Shown here: piece after piece, positions 12,821 through 23,255 of the stretch
Layout: each line of letters starts with the position of its first letter
Numbering within the stretch: the first letter of the stretch is position 1
IMG/VR virus record: IMGVR_UViG_3300028920_000276
Span: 1 to 23,255 of that record
Reading direction: 5' to 3' (one strand)
Source: a virus
Length of the DNA stretch: 23,255 nt
Translations under genes and position numbers: made by a program
The notes under the pieces: generated by a model
Seen by the model: the letters and a program-made list of their open reading frames with translations, nothing else
Told to the model about the DNA's origin: nothing
Databases searched by the model: none

Positions 12821-13921
12821 TTATTTCTCCTTTACTATATTATTTTTTAAAATCTTTTTTATATTCTTTAGCTCTGTATAAGGTATCCTAATCAGTCTAA
12901 TATTTCTCTCTTTACAATAGGCATCTTTCATTCTATCTCTTCTTTGACAGCTTTTAAAATTTTCTTCTGCTCTTTCTTGACTTATACCCCCGAATTTTAC
13001 AGGTACAAAATGTTGTTCTCCATCATATTCAATACAAATATTTCTTTCAGGTAAGTAAAAATCAAATCTTAGAGGGTACTTATCCCTTAAATTCTCAAAG
13101 GTCTTCTCTTTTTCAAATACTATACTATTAGCATTTAAAAATTTCTCTATCTTCTTCTCGCCTTTAGAGCATCTACACTTAATACATCGAGTGCCGTGTA
13201 AAAAACTATCTGGAGTTATTAAATATTCATACCCACAAAGGTTATGCCTCATTTTAATTTTAGTTCTTGAGCTAATGTACTCACCTAAAACATAGTACTC
13301 ATCGCCTACTAAATTAAATACTTCTTTTTCAAATTGTGCTTGAGACTTTTTAACTCCTCCAAAACATTTAGAACACTTACGGCCACGTAAAAAACTGTCC
13401 GGTGTTACTAAATACTCATATCCACATTTTTTATGTTTCATAAGTATTTTAGTTTTTGCACTAACGTACTCTCCAAGCACTATATACTCTTCTCCTACTA
13501 ATTCTAACACCTCTTGTTTAAACTGTTCTGTTGCTTTTGTACGTACGTGGCATTTAGGGCATCCAGTTCCTTGTAAAATATGTGATGCTCTTACATCCCA
13601 CTCATAACCACACTTATTGTGCCTCATGAGTATTTTATCATTAGCTCCTGTGTATTCACCTAAAACTTCATATTCATCACCAACAAGATCAAAAACTTCT
13701 TTCTTGAATTTTTCCGTAGTTTTTAAAGCATTAGTAGAACACTTTTGACATCTATGACCCCGTAAAAAATCACTTGATTTAATCTCATATACATAACCAC
13801 AAGTATTATGTCTCATTAATATCTTATCCTGTGATCCTATATACTCCCCTAAAACAGAGTATTCATCGCCCGTTAAAGCATAAACTTCTTTTTTAAACTC
13901 CTCTGTTGTTTTCTTTCTCAT
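12821..13921 (-). CDS. Putative homing endonuclease, four zinc-ribbon modules plus Vsr-like nuclease
   Basis: A 366-residue paralogue of the protein at 1001-2128. Four tandem modules (about 3-250) each carry (T/S)xxxF-(K/E)-(K/Q)-E-V, (D/E)EYxVLGEY, an HxxCGY motif and a final CxxC pair. The nuclease domain (about 253-366) has KGEKKIEKFL, LRFDFYLPERNICIEYDGEQHF, a basic helix, and IRLIRIPYTEL near the end. By family this is a Vsr/EDxHD-like nuclease guided by zinc-ribbon DNA-binding modules. It has its own promoter (13971-13999) and the same start-codon-sequestering inverted repeat as its paralogue. It lies between duplicated dTMP kinase leader sequences, which points to insertion at the kinase start. 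Confidence 0.87.
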   Translation of the reverse strand: MRKKTTEEFKKEVYALTGDEYSVLGEYIGSQDKILMRHNTCGYVYEIKSSDFLRGHRCQKCSTNALKTTEKFKKEVFDLVGDEYEVLGEYTGANDKILMRHNKCGYEWDVRASHILQGTGCPKCHVRTKATEQFKQEVLELVGEEYIVLGEYVSAKTKILMKHKKCGYEYLVTPDSFLRGRKCSKCFGGVKKSQAQFEKEVFNLVGDEYYVLGEYISSRTKIKMRHNLCGYEYLITPDSFLHGTRCIKCRCSKGEKKIEKFLNANSIVFEKEKTFENLRDKYPLRFDFYLPERNICIEYDGEQHFVPVKFGGISQERAEENFKSCQRRDRMKDAYCKERNIRLIRIPYTELKNIKKILKNNIVKEK

Positions 13922-16742: not shown

Positions 16743-17067
16743 ATTTCAAGTAATCTTCCTGAAGCATAGCAAAGAAGTCATCTTCTTTAGCTATAATAAA
16801 CTTATCGTGTCCTATCTCTACTTCCATTAAAGGAATCTTATTCTTAAATATAGCTTCTTTATTGACCTTGTCAAAAATCGCCTTTTTTAATGAGAAAGAT
16901 TTCTTATCAGTAGTTTTACACTCAATTAAAAAAGAGTTACTTTCAACATCTGCTTTATCAAATTCAGTAGTAGCACCGGAATTAATCGTCAATCTCCCGT
17001 TCAATCTGTTTGCCAGTGCTTTCTCCTGATTCTGTGACTTCCTTCTCATCTGATCCATTAACTTCAC
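16741..17067 (-). CDS. Holliday-junction-resolvase-like nuclease (108 aa)
   Basis: A compact PD-(D/E)XK protein. The pattern RRKSQNQEKALANRLNGRLT, then SGATTEFDKADV with Asp40, then the catalytic IECK (Glu49, Lys51) and a closing GHDKFIIAKEDDF matches short phage resolvase-like nucleases. It overlaps the RecA gene end by 86 nt, an unusually long overlap. The ATG/GTG codons at the 5' end lack a good ribosome binding site. The conserved RRKSQNQEK segment argues for a start at or before the third Met. Likely role: cutting branched recombination intermediates. Confidence 0.82.
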   Translation of the reverse strand: MKLMDQMRRKSQNQEKALANRLNGRLTINSGATTEFDKADVESNSFLIECKTTDKKSFSLKKAIFDKVNKEAIFKNKIPLMEVEIGHDKFIIAKEDDFFAMLQEDYLK

Positions 17068-18043
17068 ATCCGTTTATAATTTTTTTCATAAAGTCTCTGT
17101 ATATCTCAGGGTTATCGTATAGGTAATTGACAAACTCTGTCTTACCTTGAAACTTCTCATCTCCGTAATAGTGCCAAGCCCCAGCTTGTGTTATTAAACC
17201 TATATACTTAGCCTGTGTAATAACGAACGGGCTGCAATCACAGTACCCTGACGGGAATATTTCATCTCCACCTATGTACATCGTCCAGTACCCATACTTA
17301 CCCTCACGAGAAGTCTTATTCTTATTAGTCTTAGCCCGTATCTCAACGTGTTTCTTTTCCTTAGTGCTGCTGTCTGTAACAGTCTTACCTTTAGATAGCT
17401 CTATACGCATTGCTGCTACATGTTTGATACCTTTACCGCCCGGTGTTGTTGTAGGATCGTACATGTTCATCGTATCCCTTATTTGATTTATAAGAATAAG
17501 AGTAGGCTTTCTTTCAGAAGTACCTATAACACTGTTTAATACACGTGCAGCTTTATTCATTAGAATTGCTTTCTTACCCATTATAACGGCTTCTGCTTCT
17601 TTCTCTAACTCATTCTTAGGTACAAGTCCTTCAATAGAGTCTAATACGATTAAATCCGCAACTTCTCCAAGTATGAGTTCTTTTATGAAATCTAATCCAA
17701 GCTCACCATAAGGTATCTCGCTATATACAATGAGCTCTTCTGTGTTTACTCCTTGTACTGCCGCCCATTCATAATCGAATGTATTTTCTGTATCTACGAA
17801 CACGCATACCTTACCGAGTGCCTGGTTAGCGGCTATACATTTTAAAGTAGCTAAAGTCTTACCTACGCTATAATACCCGTATAGCTCTACAACTCTACCA
17901 GTGGGATACCCCCCACCAGTAATAATATCTAAAGTGTCAATTCCTGTTGGAATACGTTCGGGTATGAACGCATTATTCGCAGTTGTGATGTTATACTTCT
18001 TACCGAACTTCTTTAAGATGTTGGCAATGTTTTTATCCGCCAT
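16982..18043 (-). CDS. RecA/UvsX-type recombinase
   Basis: A 353-residue strand-exchange ATPase. Features in order: GIDTLDIITGGGYPTGRVVE (34-53), Walker A GYYSVGKT (56-63), catalytic Glu86 in DTENTFD, Walker B LIVLDS (131-136), and INQIRDTMN with the L2 region TTTPGGKGIKH. The acidic, glycine/serine-rich tail is typical of RecA. Bacterial RecA is of similar length, but the sequence is divergent in the manner of phage recombinases. The gene lies directly downstream of the SSB gene (4-nt gap) and overlaps a resolvase gene, as expected for recombination-dependent replication and repair. Confidence 0.93.
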   Translation of the reverse strand: MADKNIANILKKFGKKYNITTANNAFIPERIPTGIDTLDIITGGGYPTGRVVELYGYYSVGKTLATLKCIAANQALGKVCVFVDTENTFDYEWAAVQGVNTEELIVYSEIPYGELGLDFIKELILGEVADLIVLDSIEGLVPKNELEKEAEAVIMGKKAILMNKAARVLNSVIGTSERKPTLILINQIRDTMNMYDPTTTPGGKGIKHVAAMRIELSKGKTVTDSSTKEKKHVEIRAKTNKNKTSREGKYGYWTMYIGGDEIFPSGYCDCSPFVITQAKYIGLITQAGAWHYYGDEKFQGKTEFVNYLYDNPEIYRDFMKKIINGCEVNGSDEKEVTESGESTGKQIEREIDD

Positions 18044-19541: not shown

Positions 19542-19844
19542 TTATTCCTCCATATATACACCTGGGTCATTGTTTCTAAATAAGTCTAAATCATCATAAC
19601 TCCAAAATCTTTTTAATTTTTTAGTTGTATACCCTTTTCCTGTCATTAATCTGTCCCGTAACTCTATAGCATCATATGTGTTATTGAATACCTCTATGTT
19701 ATACGTATTTCCATCTAATGTTCTTCCTCTAAGCACATAAACATACCTATCATTGTCCTTATCTGCAAGTACATTATGAACCGAAAACGCTACGAACTGG
19801 TCTATTCTAACCGCTTCATTATACATCACCACAAAATTTTTCAT
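19542..19844 (-). CDS. Hypothetical protein (100 aa)
   Basis: Not recognised. A mostly beta protein (MKNFVVMYNEAVRIDQFVAF...RYVYVLRGRTLDGNTYNIEV) with a C-terminal charged segment ending NDPGVYMEE. It starts at ATG with GAGGAAGT upstream and overlaps the end of the 58-residue gene by 26 nt. Confidence 0.7.
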   Translation of the reverse strand: MKNFVVMYNEAVRIDQFVAFSVHNVLADKDNDRYVYVLRGRTLDGNTYNIEVFNNTYDAIELRDRLMTGKGYTTKKLKRFWSYDDLDLFRNNDPGVYMEE

Positions 19845-19995
19845 CTACTTCCTCCTCGTAATCTTTTAATCCTTGTTTTACCATCCTATTTGAAATAGCT
19901 TGCCTGAACTGTTTTCGTTGATACTTTCTATCAGACCTACTACCCCAACCGCTCCCTCTTACATTTTCAAGTTTCTTTATAATTCTTCTTTCCAT
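19819..19995 (-). CDS. Small basic protein (58 aa)
   Basis: MERRIIKKLENVRGSGWGSR, then SDRKYQRKQFRQAISNRMVK and an acidic end (DYEEEVDEKFCGDV). The ATG at 19995 has AAGGTAGGTG about 8 nt upstream. It is the first gene after the large structured RNA region and could be translated from read-through of that transcript. The N-terminal half is strongly basic with Gly/Ser, suggestive of nucleic-acid binding. No family recognised. Confidence 0.6.
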   Translation of the reverse strand: MERRIIKKLENVRGSGWGSRSDRKYQRKQFRQAISNRMVKQGLKDYEEEVDEKFCGDV

Positions 19996-20035: not shown

Positions 20036-20046
20036 TAAATAATATA

Positions 20047-20072
20047 CCTGTTGATTATAGAAGCTCAACAGG
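20047..20072 (-). terminator. 3' hairpin of the large RNA
   Basis: CCTGTTGA (20072-20065) pairs with TCAACAGG (20054-20047) across a 10-nt loop, GCTTCTATAA. The following bases TATATTATTT are only loosely T-rich, so it may be a weak terminator or a processing boundary. The loop GCTTC is complementary to GAAGC at the predicted 5' end (about 20621-20617), allowing a possible 5'-3' contact. Confidence 0.55.
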
Positions 20073-20108
20073 CAAAGCTCCGTTTTAATATAGTTAAAAA
20101 CTTAATAA

Positions 20109-20139
20109 TGCGGTTTTGGTAAGGAGAACCGCAAACTCC
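20109..20139 (-). other. Predicted H-type pseudoknot inside the large RNA
   Basis: GGAG (20139-20136) pairs with CTCC (20126-20123). The loop contains TGCGGTT (20133-20127), which is fully complementary to AACCGCA at 20115-20109. The two stems interlock, the classic H-type arrangement. It supports a folded functional RNA rather than random sequence. Confidence 0.6.
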
Positions 20140-20628
20140 TAACAACCACACCCATATAGAGTTATGTGGAAGTCTTTACTAATACTGGCTTTTTATTCAG
20201 GAAATAAACCAGTGAACCTGTCGATGCATGCACCTTGAATAGTATCAAGCAGAGTCCGTTGAAGCACTCCACTATCTCCATCTGCCATTGGCAGACAAGT
20301 CTCAAGGATACCTTTTTGAGCGTCCTCGCAAAGCTATCCAGTACCCTTTCTATCGTAGATAGATGGGCGAAAGACGTTTTTGTTCACAAGAGAACGCCCA
20401 AACTCCGTTCCTTACTCGGCGAAGGAAATGAACTGACTCCGAGTCGCAACGCTACCGCTGACTGTTCGTTGCGATTTGTTTTAAGCGGCGGCATTAACTT
20501 TTTTTAATCGGGGAAGTATGCTTTAACCCCAACCGAAAGAGCTATCTAAATAGCGGGAACGGCTCTCTTACACCTTCATGGATAATATACGTGAAACGCA
20601 TAAGACCCTTCGCAGTGCTTCATAAATA

Positions 20629-20657
20629 AGTTTACCATAAAAAATCAACTTTGTCAA
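20629..20657 (-). promoter_or_regulatory. Strong SigA-type promoter of the large RNA
   Basis: On the minus strand, TTGACA (20657-20652), a 17-nt spacer ending TATGG, and TAAACT (20634-20629). A perfect -35 box and optimal spacing, directly abutting the structured region, fix both the strand and the approximate 5' end of the RNA. Confidence 0.88.
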
Positions 20658-20685
20658 GTTTCTTAATGTAACGGTTTTGTAACGT

Positions 20686-20823: not shown

Positions 20824-21246
20824 TTACGAGTTTGTTACTGATCTTGATAGCGGCTTGTACACAAATGCGCTTCTTTCGTACTGAGCCAAAAGAGGATCAG
20901 TCTGCCAATGTTCTAATACAAAGTTATACATATAATGTTTATTACGATTTGTAAACCCGCCTTTTTTCTTGTACTTTAAAATACCAAGATGTAATCCCTC
21001 AAATTGATGCCAGATGTATAATCTATGATATGGTATTTTACTATTACCTGTCGGATATAAAATTGGCGTTTCAGGTATGACTCCATTCTTAATCCAATTT
21101 CTAACAGTAGCAATGTTCATGTTTAAAAATTCCGCTATGTTATTTATCTTATACCCATTCCTATAATAAGGTTCGTTATCAGTGCCAAAATTATATAGTG
21201 AAGGCATGTGTGCATACGTCTCAATCATTTTCTTCTTATTAGCCAC
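20824..21246 (-). CDS. MerR/excisionase-type HTH protein (140 aa)
   Basis: Residues about 30-70 form a winged-helix DNA-binding domain of the MerR/HTH_17 kind: NGYKINNIAEFLNMNIATVRNWIKNGVIPETP. There is a recognition helix at IATVRNWIKNG and a wing-like YPTGNSKIPYHRLYIW. The remaining 70 residues are unassigned. It starts at GTG with GAGG 10 nt upstream and follows the helicase gene by 15 nt. It may regulate phage transcription or act in replication as a DNA-binding accessory; the target is unknown. Confidence 0.8.
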   Translation of the reverse strand: MANKKKMIETYAHMPSLYNFGTDNEPYYRNGYKINNIAEFLNMNIATVRNWIKNGVIPETPILYPTGNSKIPYHRLYIWHQFEGLHLGILKYKKKGGFTNRNKHYMYNFVLEHWQTDPLLAQYERSAFVYKPLSRSVTNS

Positions 21247-21261
21247 TAGTTATCATCCTCT

Positions 21262-22653
21262 TTAAATCCATTTTAATCTTTTCATGTTTAAACGGTTGCT
21301 TTCTAATCCCATCTCTGAATATACAACCCTTCTCTTATAGAAAAACGCTTTAAACACCTTAGAGTCATCTATAAAATCATATACATCTACATTCTCATTC
21401 TTTCCTTCTTTTTTCCTTGTTAATCTACCTACTGCCTGTATGACACCACTTCTTCCTGCGATTGGTGTGGCGAAAATTAGCGTGTCAAGAAGCGGCAAAT
21501 CTACACCTTCTTTAGCTACTCCATAAGTAGCAAATACAAAATCTGCTGTTTTAGCTTTCTGTCTCTCCTCATCTTTTGAAGCTCCTATCAACAAACATAC
21601 TTCTTTTTTAGGGAATAATTTTACCATGTTTTTATAAAACATTCTTGCGTGATCTACTCTGCAAGTTAAAAATAATGTTTTTCTATCGTTCTTACCCATT
21701 GTGTTTAAGCATCGGTACAACATTTTATTCCTATACGAATCTTGTGTCATTTTCGTTAGAGCAGTCGCTAAATTTGCATTTCTTCTATTATAAAAACTAT
21801 GCGTTCTATCTTCCCAGCCTGTATAACATTCCCAAATTTTCGGCTTAATTTCCTGCTCCATTTCTATCTTAAATGGTTTCCCTATACATAGTTTGAATAC
21901 GAAATCTAATCCATCGTTTCTAAATGCTGTTGCTGAGAATCCTATCCTTATCTTAGCCGGAAATTTTGAGATACATTGGTAGAATGTTTCTGCACTGAAA
22001 TTATGTGCTTCATCAACGATAACAACATCAAAAGAATTAAAAAAATCTGCTTCTACAAGTTGAGTATACTTTTTCTTATGATATGGTTGAATAGACTGAA
22101 CTGTTGCTATTACAACATCATATTGTTCACTTATCTCCATTTTTCCGCTTCCGAGAAGCCCGACTTTTGCGTTACTAAATTCATTAAATGCTTCTTTCCA
22201 CTGATTCATCAATGATTTCTTATGTACTAATACCAAAGCCCTTCTCTTGAAATGTGTTATCGCTGATATTCCAGTAACAGTTTTTCCGCTTCCAGTAGGC
22301 ATTTCTATAATCAAGTTACCATTAGCATCTATAATAGCTTCCATTGCCTTAGATTGGTTCTCTCTTAACGTTTTACCGGCCGCAAATTCTAAGTGATCTT
22401 TTGGGTTAGCCCATGTCGTAGCGTCTATCAAGTTATCCATAGGTATTGCGTTGTTTCTGTACATTCTTGGAACTTCAATATAATCTTTCGTTTCTGTATA
22501 GAAGTTTAATTCGCTTTTAATCCCTTTCGTTGACCTGTTAGCTTTAGCTGCTTCCCTGAACGCAGGGTTTACAACTTTCAGGTCATTTTTAATATATACT
22601 TTAAATTCTTTGGGTAATTTTAAGGTCTCTGCATAATACAATTTAATCTCCAC
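21262..22653 (-). CDS. Superfamily 2 DEAD/DEAH helicase, UvsW/Hef-like
   Basis: A 463-residue SF2 helicase. Motif I is MPTGSGKT (118-125), motif II DEAH at 213-216 (VVIVDEAHNF), motif III GFSATAFRNDG, and motif VI QAVGRLTRKKEG near residues 409-420. The N-terminal ~95 residues (LRENQSKAMEAI at 96-107 is the Q-motif-like part) precede the motor. T4 UvsW has this size range and unwinds branched recombination and replication intermediates; that role fits with RecA, SSB and resolvases nearby. The start is ambiguous: GTG at 22653 with a poor ribosome binding site, or TTG four codons later with GGAG 6 nt upstream. It overlaps the primase gene by 34 nt. Confidence 0.92.
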   Translation of the reverse strand: MEIKLYYAETLKLPKEFKVYIKNDLKVVNPAFREAAKANRSTKGIKSELNFYTETKDYIEVPRMYRNNAIPMDNLIDATTWANPKDHLEFAAGKTLRENQSKAMEAIIDANGNLIIEMPTGSGKTVTGISAITHFKRRALVLVHKKSLMNQWKEAFNEFSNAKVGLLGSGKMEISEQYDVVIATVQSIQPYHKKKYTQLVEADFFNSFDVVIVDEAHNFSAETFYQCISKFPAKIRIGFSATAFRNDGLDFVFKLCIGKPFKIEMEQEIKPKIWECYTGWEDRTHSFYNRRNANLATALTKMTQDSYRNKMLYRCLNTMGKNDRKTLFLTCRVDHARMFYKNMVKLFPKKEVCLLIGASKDEERQKAKTADFVFATYGVAKEGVDLPLLDTLIFATPIAGRSGVIQAVGRLTRKKEGKNENVDVYDFIDDSKVFKAFFYKRRVVYSEMGLESNRLNMKRLKWI

Positions 22654-23255
22654 TCCATATAGTTTTTTTCTTTTATATTTAGCGTTTTTAAATCGCCAAA
22701 ATCTTTGATTCCAGCAGGGTATTCAACAACGCTTAGTTTATGTCCTTTTGTTGATAAGTATCTTCCAATTTTTTCTGTTGCAATTCGTCCCCAGTTTTGT
22801 TTCTTGTTAAAATCATTGTCGAGGGCTAATACAACTTCTGTTGCATACTTATTAATAATCTTCTCTTGTTCTTTACTTAGTTTAGTCCCCATTATCCCTA
22901 CAACATTTGTAAGCCCTAAAGAATAAGCCCTTAAAACGTCGAAATTTCCTTCAACAATAGTTACTCTGCCTGGCTTTAAAAATTGCGCCCCATAAACGGT
23001 TTTACTCTTCTCTACCTCATGCTTATACCTCATTTGAGTATTGTTTATAAATCTAAATGTAAACCCTTGTAGCTGTTTGTCATCTGTATATATAGGAAGT
23101 ACGATAGCGTTTTGTATAGGGTCAACGCCTATGTCAAACATTTCAATAACTTCCTCCGAAATTCCGCGTTCTTTCAGGTAATCAGTTTTAAGATTTAATT
23201 TATAATAGTCTACAAGGTAATCTTGTGAATCTTCAAAATGAACAATATCTTCAGT
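22620..23255 (-). CDS. DnaG-type primase, TOPRIM part (5' end outside window)
   Basis: A partial gene, at least 211 codons, open to the window edge. Visible parts: a DnaG core-like segment (YLKERGISEEVIEMFDIGVD, NAIVLPIYTDDKQLQGFTFRFI), then the TOPRIM domain with the catalytic acidic motif VTIVEGNFDVLRAYSLG and the DxD motif as VVLALDNDFNKK. The order and the GFTFR...KY element match the RNA polymerase domain of bacterial and phage primases. The N-terminal zinc domain would lie outside the window. The protein lacks a fused helicase after the TOPRIM, ending MEWRLNCIMQRP, so the helicase is separate. It primes lagging-strand synthesis. Confidence 0.9.
   Translation of the reverse strand, partial: TEDIVHFEDSQDYLVDYYKLNLKTDYLKERGISEEVIEMFDIGVDPIQNAIVLPIYTDDKQLQGFTFRFINNTQMRYKHEVEKSKTVYGAQFLKPGRVTIVEGNFDVLRAYSLGLTNVVGIMGTKLSKEQEKIINKYATEVVLALDNDFNKKQNWGRIATEKIGRYLSTKGHKLSVVEYPAGIKDFGDLKTLNIKEKNYMEWRLNCIMQRP

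Follow-up and report, generated by a model that had tools for sequence, protein, structure and literature searches.

Large, ornate RNAs of phages are, to our knowledge, few in number, structurally striking, and without known function; ROOL RNAs often lie near tRNA islands in phages. ROOL forms a homo-octameric RNA cage (PMC12286853), and the L. salivarius ROOL RNA that served as our positive control is an abundant long non-coding RNA (lncRNA) of the megaplasmid pMP118 (PMC5643018). Lytic phages also carry lncRNAs that are unclassified, such as that of ICP1, which measures about 800 nt (PMC7567579), and those of phage K (PMC9241854). We describe here a stretch of viral DNA for which a sequence-only reading had proposed a structured RNA, non-coding and driven from its own promoter, that would belong to the ROOL class or be a new relative. 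The sequence evidence supports the first part of this proposal, but the assignment to ROOL is not supported, for want of a match to the model, and the best reading is that the RNA belongs to an undescribed family.

The DNA is an IMG/VR record of 23,255 bases, used in its complete length as the window and hence a genome fragment. Its recognizable genes all lie on the minus strand and are co-directional. They comprise a primase piece (22620-23141), a helicase (21262-22653), RecA/UvsX (16982-18043), Holliday junction resolvases, a Cas4-like exonuclease, PhoH, ThyX, thymidylate kinase, and an HNH-type nuclease. The stretch of interest sits in a replication/recombination module, with the helicase on one side and SSB-like and RecA genes on the other. 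Directly upstream lies a gene for a small protein of 140 aa (20824-21246, minus strand) with a weak HTH match (PF12728, E 4e-4, under the curated cut-off), which by position only is a candidate regulator. Downstream, a 58-aa basic ORF (19819-19995, minus strand) heads the run leading to RecA, followed by a 100-aa ORF, the SSB-like protein, and RecA itself. A 12-nt word, AAGGTAGGTGAT, is duplicated directly ahead of the 58-aa ORF (20036-19995, minus strand), its second copy occupying the ribosome-binding-site position. The 23-kb fragment contains no tRNA genes, so the claim that the RNA does not lie beside tRNAs holds within the fragment and reaches no further.

Two other features of the record deserve mention. 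At the left end, about 1 kb of AT-rich sequence (1-1000) lacks any ORF of at least 50 aa and contains inverted repeats as well as 13 of the record's 30 GTTTCATG-like sites (at most one mismatch), making it a candidate iteron-type replication origin or regulator array. Furthermore, a related pair of proteins (1001-2128 and 12821-13921, minus strand) carries, as read from the sequences, repeated zinc-finger-like units and a C-terminal nuclease-like domain; the second has matches among HNH/homing endonuclease families and shares 47% identity with a protein of Lactobacillus phage LfeInf, and both are probable free-standing homing endonucleases.

The putative lncRNA comprises about 578 nt (20045-20622, minus strand), with its start placed by the promoter and its end by the last hairpin. 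Of the extent originally claimed, 20047-20657, the RNA part can be kept as about 20622-20045, whereas 20623-20657 is promoter. The stretch indeed has no coding frame on the minus strand, where the longest ORF measures 47 aa, and every one of the six frames scores negative for codon usage (-0.48 to -0.91 bits per codon), as against +0.16 to +0.31 bits per codon for five genes of the record. A 90-aa ORF with a TTG start on the plus strand (20235-20507) was rejected as a gene, having a codon-usage score of -0.58 and no PHROG match; an ORF of at least 90 aa arose on one strand in 16 of 500 mononucleotide shuffles. The stretch had also been described as less AT-rich than the genome, and its GC content (0.434) exceeds that of all 578-nt windows sampled (mean 0.330, sd 0.030), the maximum of 0.429 coming from a window that overlaps it. 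Likewise, its AT skew is matched solely by overlapping windows of this length. GC skew keeps its sign across the stretch but amounts to -0.08 versus a mean of -0.28 in the record; such near absence of strand skew is expected of a sequence that pairs with itself. The composition turns at the promoter, making the stretch unlike the remainder of the record, and the combination of the highest GC content, a nearly absent skew, and no coding signal from the promoter onward argues for a discrete RNA.

The predicted promoter (20657-20629, minus strand) has the claimed layout, with a -35 hexamer TTGACA (20652-20657) and a -10 hexamer TAAACT (20629-20634) separated by 17 nt, matching the consensus at 10 of 12 positions and carrying a TG extension before the -10 (TGG-TAAACT). 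Since promoter-like matches as a class are no more common in the record than in shuffled sequence, the consensus match by itself is weak evidence. What makes this promoter convincing is a box, CGTTACA, that it has in common with others. This presumed regulator-binding site lies 9 nt 5' of the -35 (20667-20673, minus strand; CGTTACA-N9-TTGACA), and a second exact copy is found further upstream (20678-20684), 11 nt from the first. The rest of the record holds three more copies, two of which are placed exactly 9 nt 5' of the -35 at two intergenic promoters with 17-nt spacers (14571-14527 and 6692-6648, minus strand), identical in box and spacing. The composite pattern of box and promoter, allowing up to two mismatches, has three instances in the record versus one in 30 whole-record shuffles; because the heptamer was picked after its doubled copy had been seen, the fair count is two further sites versus about 0.03 expected. 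Judged by these counts, the boxed promoter is not a chance arrangement. Most simply, the box would be the binding site for a phage or host regulator and, being common to at least two other phage promoters, probably for one and the same regulator. The three intergenic promoters (20684-20629, 14571-14527, and 6692-6648, minus strand) share a CGTTACA-N9-TTGACA/TTGAAA-N17-TATAAT-like layout and may form a small phage regulon under a putative regulator. Read from the sequence, a possible leaderless ORF of 15 codons, MKHCEGSYAFHVYYP (20623-20576, minus strand), places its ATG where transcription of the RNA is predicted to start.

Counting from 20622 as RNA position 1, at least 10 stems are predicted with a pairing probability above 0.8, where the sequence-only reading had claimed at least seven: 15-43, 21-37, 69-82, 89-117, 127-176, 134-169, 255-280, 260-274, 410-439, and the 3' hairpin at 549-578. 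The predicted first nine bases, UGAAGCACU (20614-20622), can pair with AGUGCUUCA (20260-20268, RNA 355-363) to form a helix, P1, that would enclose a 5' domain of 363 nt. Of 575 RNA positions, a single one, the predicted first base, has a perfect 9-nt complement downstream. P1 is present in the minimum-energy structure if the RNA is folded to 20040, its ensemble probability varying from 0.2 to 0.5 with the assumed 3' end, and it faces competition from another closing helix (RNA 56-64 with 491-499). Within the 5' domain, a hairpin GGUUGGGG/CCCCGAUU (20506-20534, probability 0.96) is predicted, as is a stem GCCGCU/AGCGGU (20444-20489, 0.91 to 0.94) that overlaps a perfect 8-bp inverted repeat, UCGCAACG/CGUUGCGA (RNA 134-179). 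By complementarity, the latter two constitute a possible H-type pseudoknot, so that the pseudoknot claimed in the sequence-only reading is a possible one; a second possible pseudoknot combines CCUUGA/UCAAGG with ACUUGUC/GACAGGU (RNA 316-407). A 13-bp helix, UUUGGGCGUUCUC/GAGGACGCUCAAA (20315-20402, RNA 221-308, 0.69 to 0.82), is predicted around two further stems, and the 3' domain has a predicted hairpin ACUGGUUU/AAGCCAGU (20184-20213, 0.89). The closing hairpin that had been claimed is found at 20074-20045, with 10 bp, a 10-nt loop, the tail UAUUAUUU, and a probability of about 1.0 (0.97 to 1.0). The palindrome UGCAUGCA was discarded as a dimerization site, an 8-nt palindrome being expected by chance at such a length. 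As for possible base pairing of the RNA with other parts of the record, the longest word that they share measures 14 nt.

The minus strand folds with an energy of -177.5 kcal/mol (z -3.22), a value reached by none of 60 dinucleotide shuffles, and the plus strand gives z -2.1. Among 80 other 578-nt windows (average z -0.48, sd 1.2), two fell slightly below -3.22, each judged on 12 shuffles only. The count of long inverted repeats is modestly above that in shuffles. Since 200-nt windows across the stretch are unremarkable, fold energy supports structure rather than proving it, and the predicted structure is supported, though not by energy alone. Together, the z score, the unique 5' complement, and the stable 3' hairpin favor a discrete RNA.

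On balance, we consider it somewhat more probable than not that the stretch encodes a discrete, regulated, trans-acting lncRNA of the phage. Host-type RNA polymerase would initiate at about 20622 from the sigma-70 promoter, which the CGTTACA box would tie to at least two other phage promoters, probably via a regulator. Pairing of the first nine bases with bases 355-363 would close the 5' domain, and a smaller 3' domain would finish with a stable hairpin serving to mark or protect the 3' terminus. Made during phage replication, the RNA would most likely act in trans as a scaffold or RNA-only particle, the scaffold role being the weakest step of this proposal.

The main rival, which we think unlikely, is a long structured 5' leader that regulates the downstream operon (58-aa ORF, 100-aa ORF, SSB-like protein, and RecA) in cis. 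It is kept alive by the non-canonical 3' hairpin together with our failure to find a good promoter between the RNA and the start codon at 19995, and the co-directionality of all genes also fits it. The hairpin at 20045-20074 was not reported by the terminator scan and its tail has no U-run; the record does have canonical terminator-like sites at other places, which makes it uncertain whether transcription ends at this hairpin. However, leaders are short at the other two boxed promoters, whose start codons follow within about 60 nt, whereas the next start codon past the RNA, at 19995, lies 627 nt from the predicted transcription start, which favors a discrete RNA. In addition, at 580 nt and with its 5' domain closed, the stretch would make a long leader, and no riboswitch or leader family in Rfam matches.

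We regard it as quite improbable that the stretch is a spacer or decayed sequence without a functional RNA. This explanation draws on the lack of evidence for conservation and on the modest fold z, which 2 of the 80 other windows equal relative to shuffles. At the nucleotide level, blastn with the RNA yielded no homologue in 72,556 plasmids or, with a threshold as lax as E ≤ 10, in 50,697 phage records, nor did a DNA search of 789 genomes of one clostridial class and its phylum, in sets of 391 and 398. The four matches of 25 to 32 nt that turned up in these two sets plus three single genomes were rejected as chance, lying in or beside protein genes (e.g., dnaE) or in AT-rich sequence. Exact-word scans of IMG/VR with TGCATGCATCGACAGG, GAAGCACTGCGAAGGG, and CCTTGAGACTTGTC returned chance matches only, as did a scan of genome contigs with AGTGCTTCAACGGACTC and, among the matches listed, an IMG/VR scan with GCGAAGGN{20,30}CCATGAAGG. 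Because these IMG/VR scans relied on exact words, the missing homologues do not prove absence. The proteins of the record have distant relatives only, with the helicase showing about 31% identity in known phages and, among the matches listed, at most about 34% over the best segment in IMG/VR. The helicase and the HTH protein, each scanned singly against IMG/VR, brought up no relatives, and the SSB-like protein had none among phages. Two helicase alignments (A1 and A3), scanned against IMG/VR, gave only distant relatives that lack the RNA, in the case of A1 among the matches listed. The RNA is thus a candidate that rests on a single sequence. A spacer would, however, explain neither the boxed promoter, which is not chance, nor the shift in composition at that promoter, and spacers of 600 nt are rare in phages, which seldom keep them. 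Still, the absence of a homologue, a fold z that is not unique, the modest excess of long inverted repeats, the intermediate probability of P1 with its competitor, and the non-canonical 3' end do weaken the case for a discrete RNA.

It seems to us very unlikely that the RNA has diverged from a known class (ROOL, GOLLD, or a group I intron remnant) so far as to escape the Rfam models, although its size and setting resemble those of ROOL. Permissive-filter Rfam searches of the stretch, spanning 601 to 901 bases at E ≤ 10, gave a sole match, on the plus strand and far under the cut-off (E 1.3 to 1.9), which we attribute to chance. No covariance match to ROOL (RF03087) was obtained at E ≤ 10, either with full Rfam or with the ROOL model alone, and with the same library the ROOL of L. 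salivarius scored 130.4 bits (E 9e-27). The suggested comparison with ROOL, GOLLD, and ARRPOF gave no match to any of them, which is the first of the two outcomes that the sequence-only reading had named as jointly refuting it. Likewise, the stretch showed no covariance-model match to group I/II introns, RNase P, tmRNA, OLE, raiA, or riboswitches, and the whole record contained no Rfam family at gathering level. Membership in ROOL, GOLLD, or any other Rfam family is rejected on the evidence of these covariance models, with a working positive control. Moreover, the topology is unlike that of ROOL, and the stretch is intergenic rather than inside a gene. Least probable of all is an origin transcript that primes replication locally in an R-loop-type manner, or DNA that is itself the origin, as the location within the replication/recombination module might suggest, because the stretch is GC-rich and not AT-rich and the repeat-bearing sequence at 1-1000 looks far more like an origin, while the GC skew does not change sign and neither ARRPOF nor another Rfam family matches.

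Beyond the reading of a discrete lncRNA, it is conceivable, albeit doubtful, that we are dealing with a novel family of large ornate RNAs in phages, without relation to ROOL or GOLLD, that is expressed from a phage-regulated promoter in a replication module and forms an RNA-only assembly. If true, one more phage class without kinship to the others would point to repeated origins of such RNAs, and its ties to replication genes and to a defined promoter box of the phage would offer a way into the timing and purpose of their production.

In comparison with the lncRNAs of ICP1 and phage K, the RNA would similarly be a long non-coding transcript from an ORF-less gap, in the case of ICP1 also one not beside tRNAs; those lncRNAs are, however, transcripts, whereas the present RNA is known from sequence alone and has no nucleotide similarity to the phage collection. 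With GOLLD, which is large, structured, carried by phages, and of unknown function (PMC12286853), it shares these general traits, but GOLLD is larger, often more than 800 nt, and has a conserved 3' region, and the present RNA has no covariance match to it. ROOL (RF03087; 574 model positions) is likewise borne by phages and mobile elements, strongly folded, and non-coding. In the ROOL model, however, base pairing joins the 5' and 3' ends, whereas in the present RNA the first nine bases are predicted to pair internally (RNA 355-363), and single-sequence folding produces a 5'-3' helix only with the untranscribed -10 region included. Within the 23-kb fragment, no tRNA gene accompanies it. We have not filed the RNA as ROOL or GOLLD because no model matches and its 5' end is predicted to pair internally. 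The role that we propose would nevertheless be modeled on what is supposed for ROOL and GOLLD, without membership in either.
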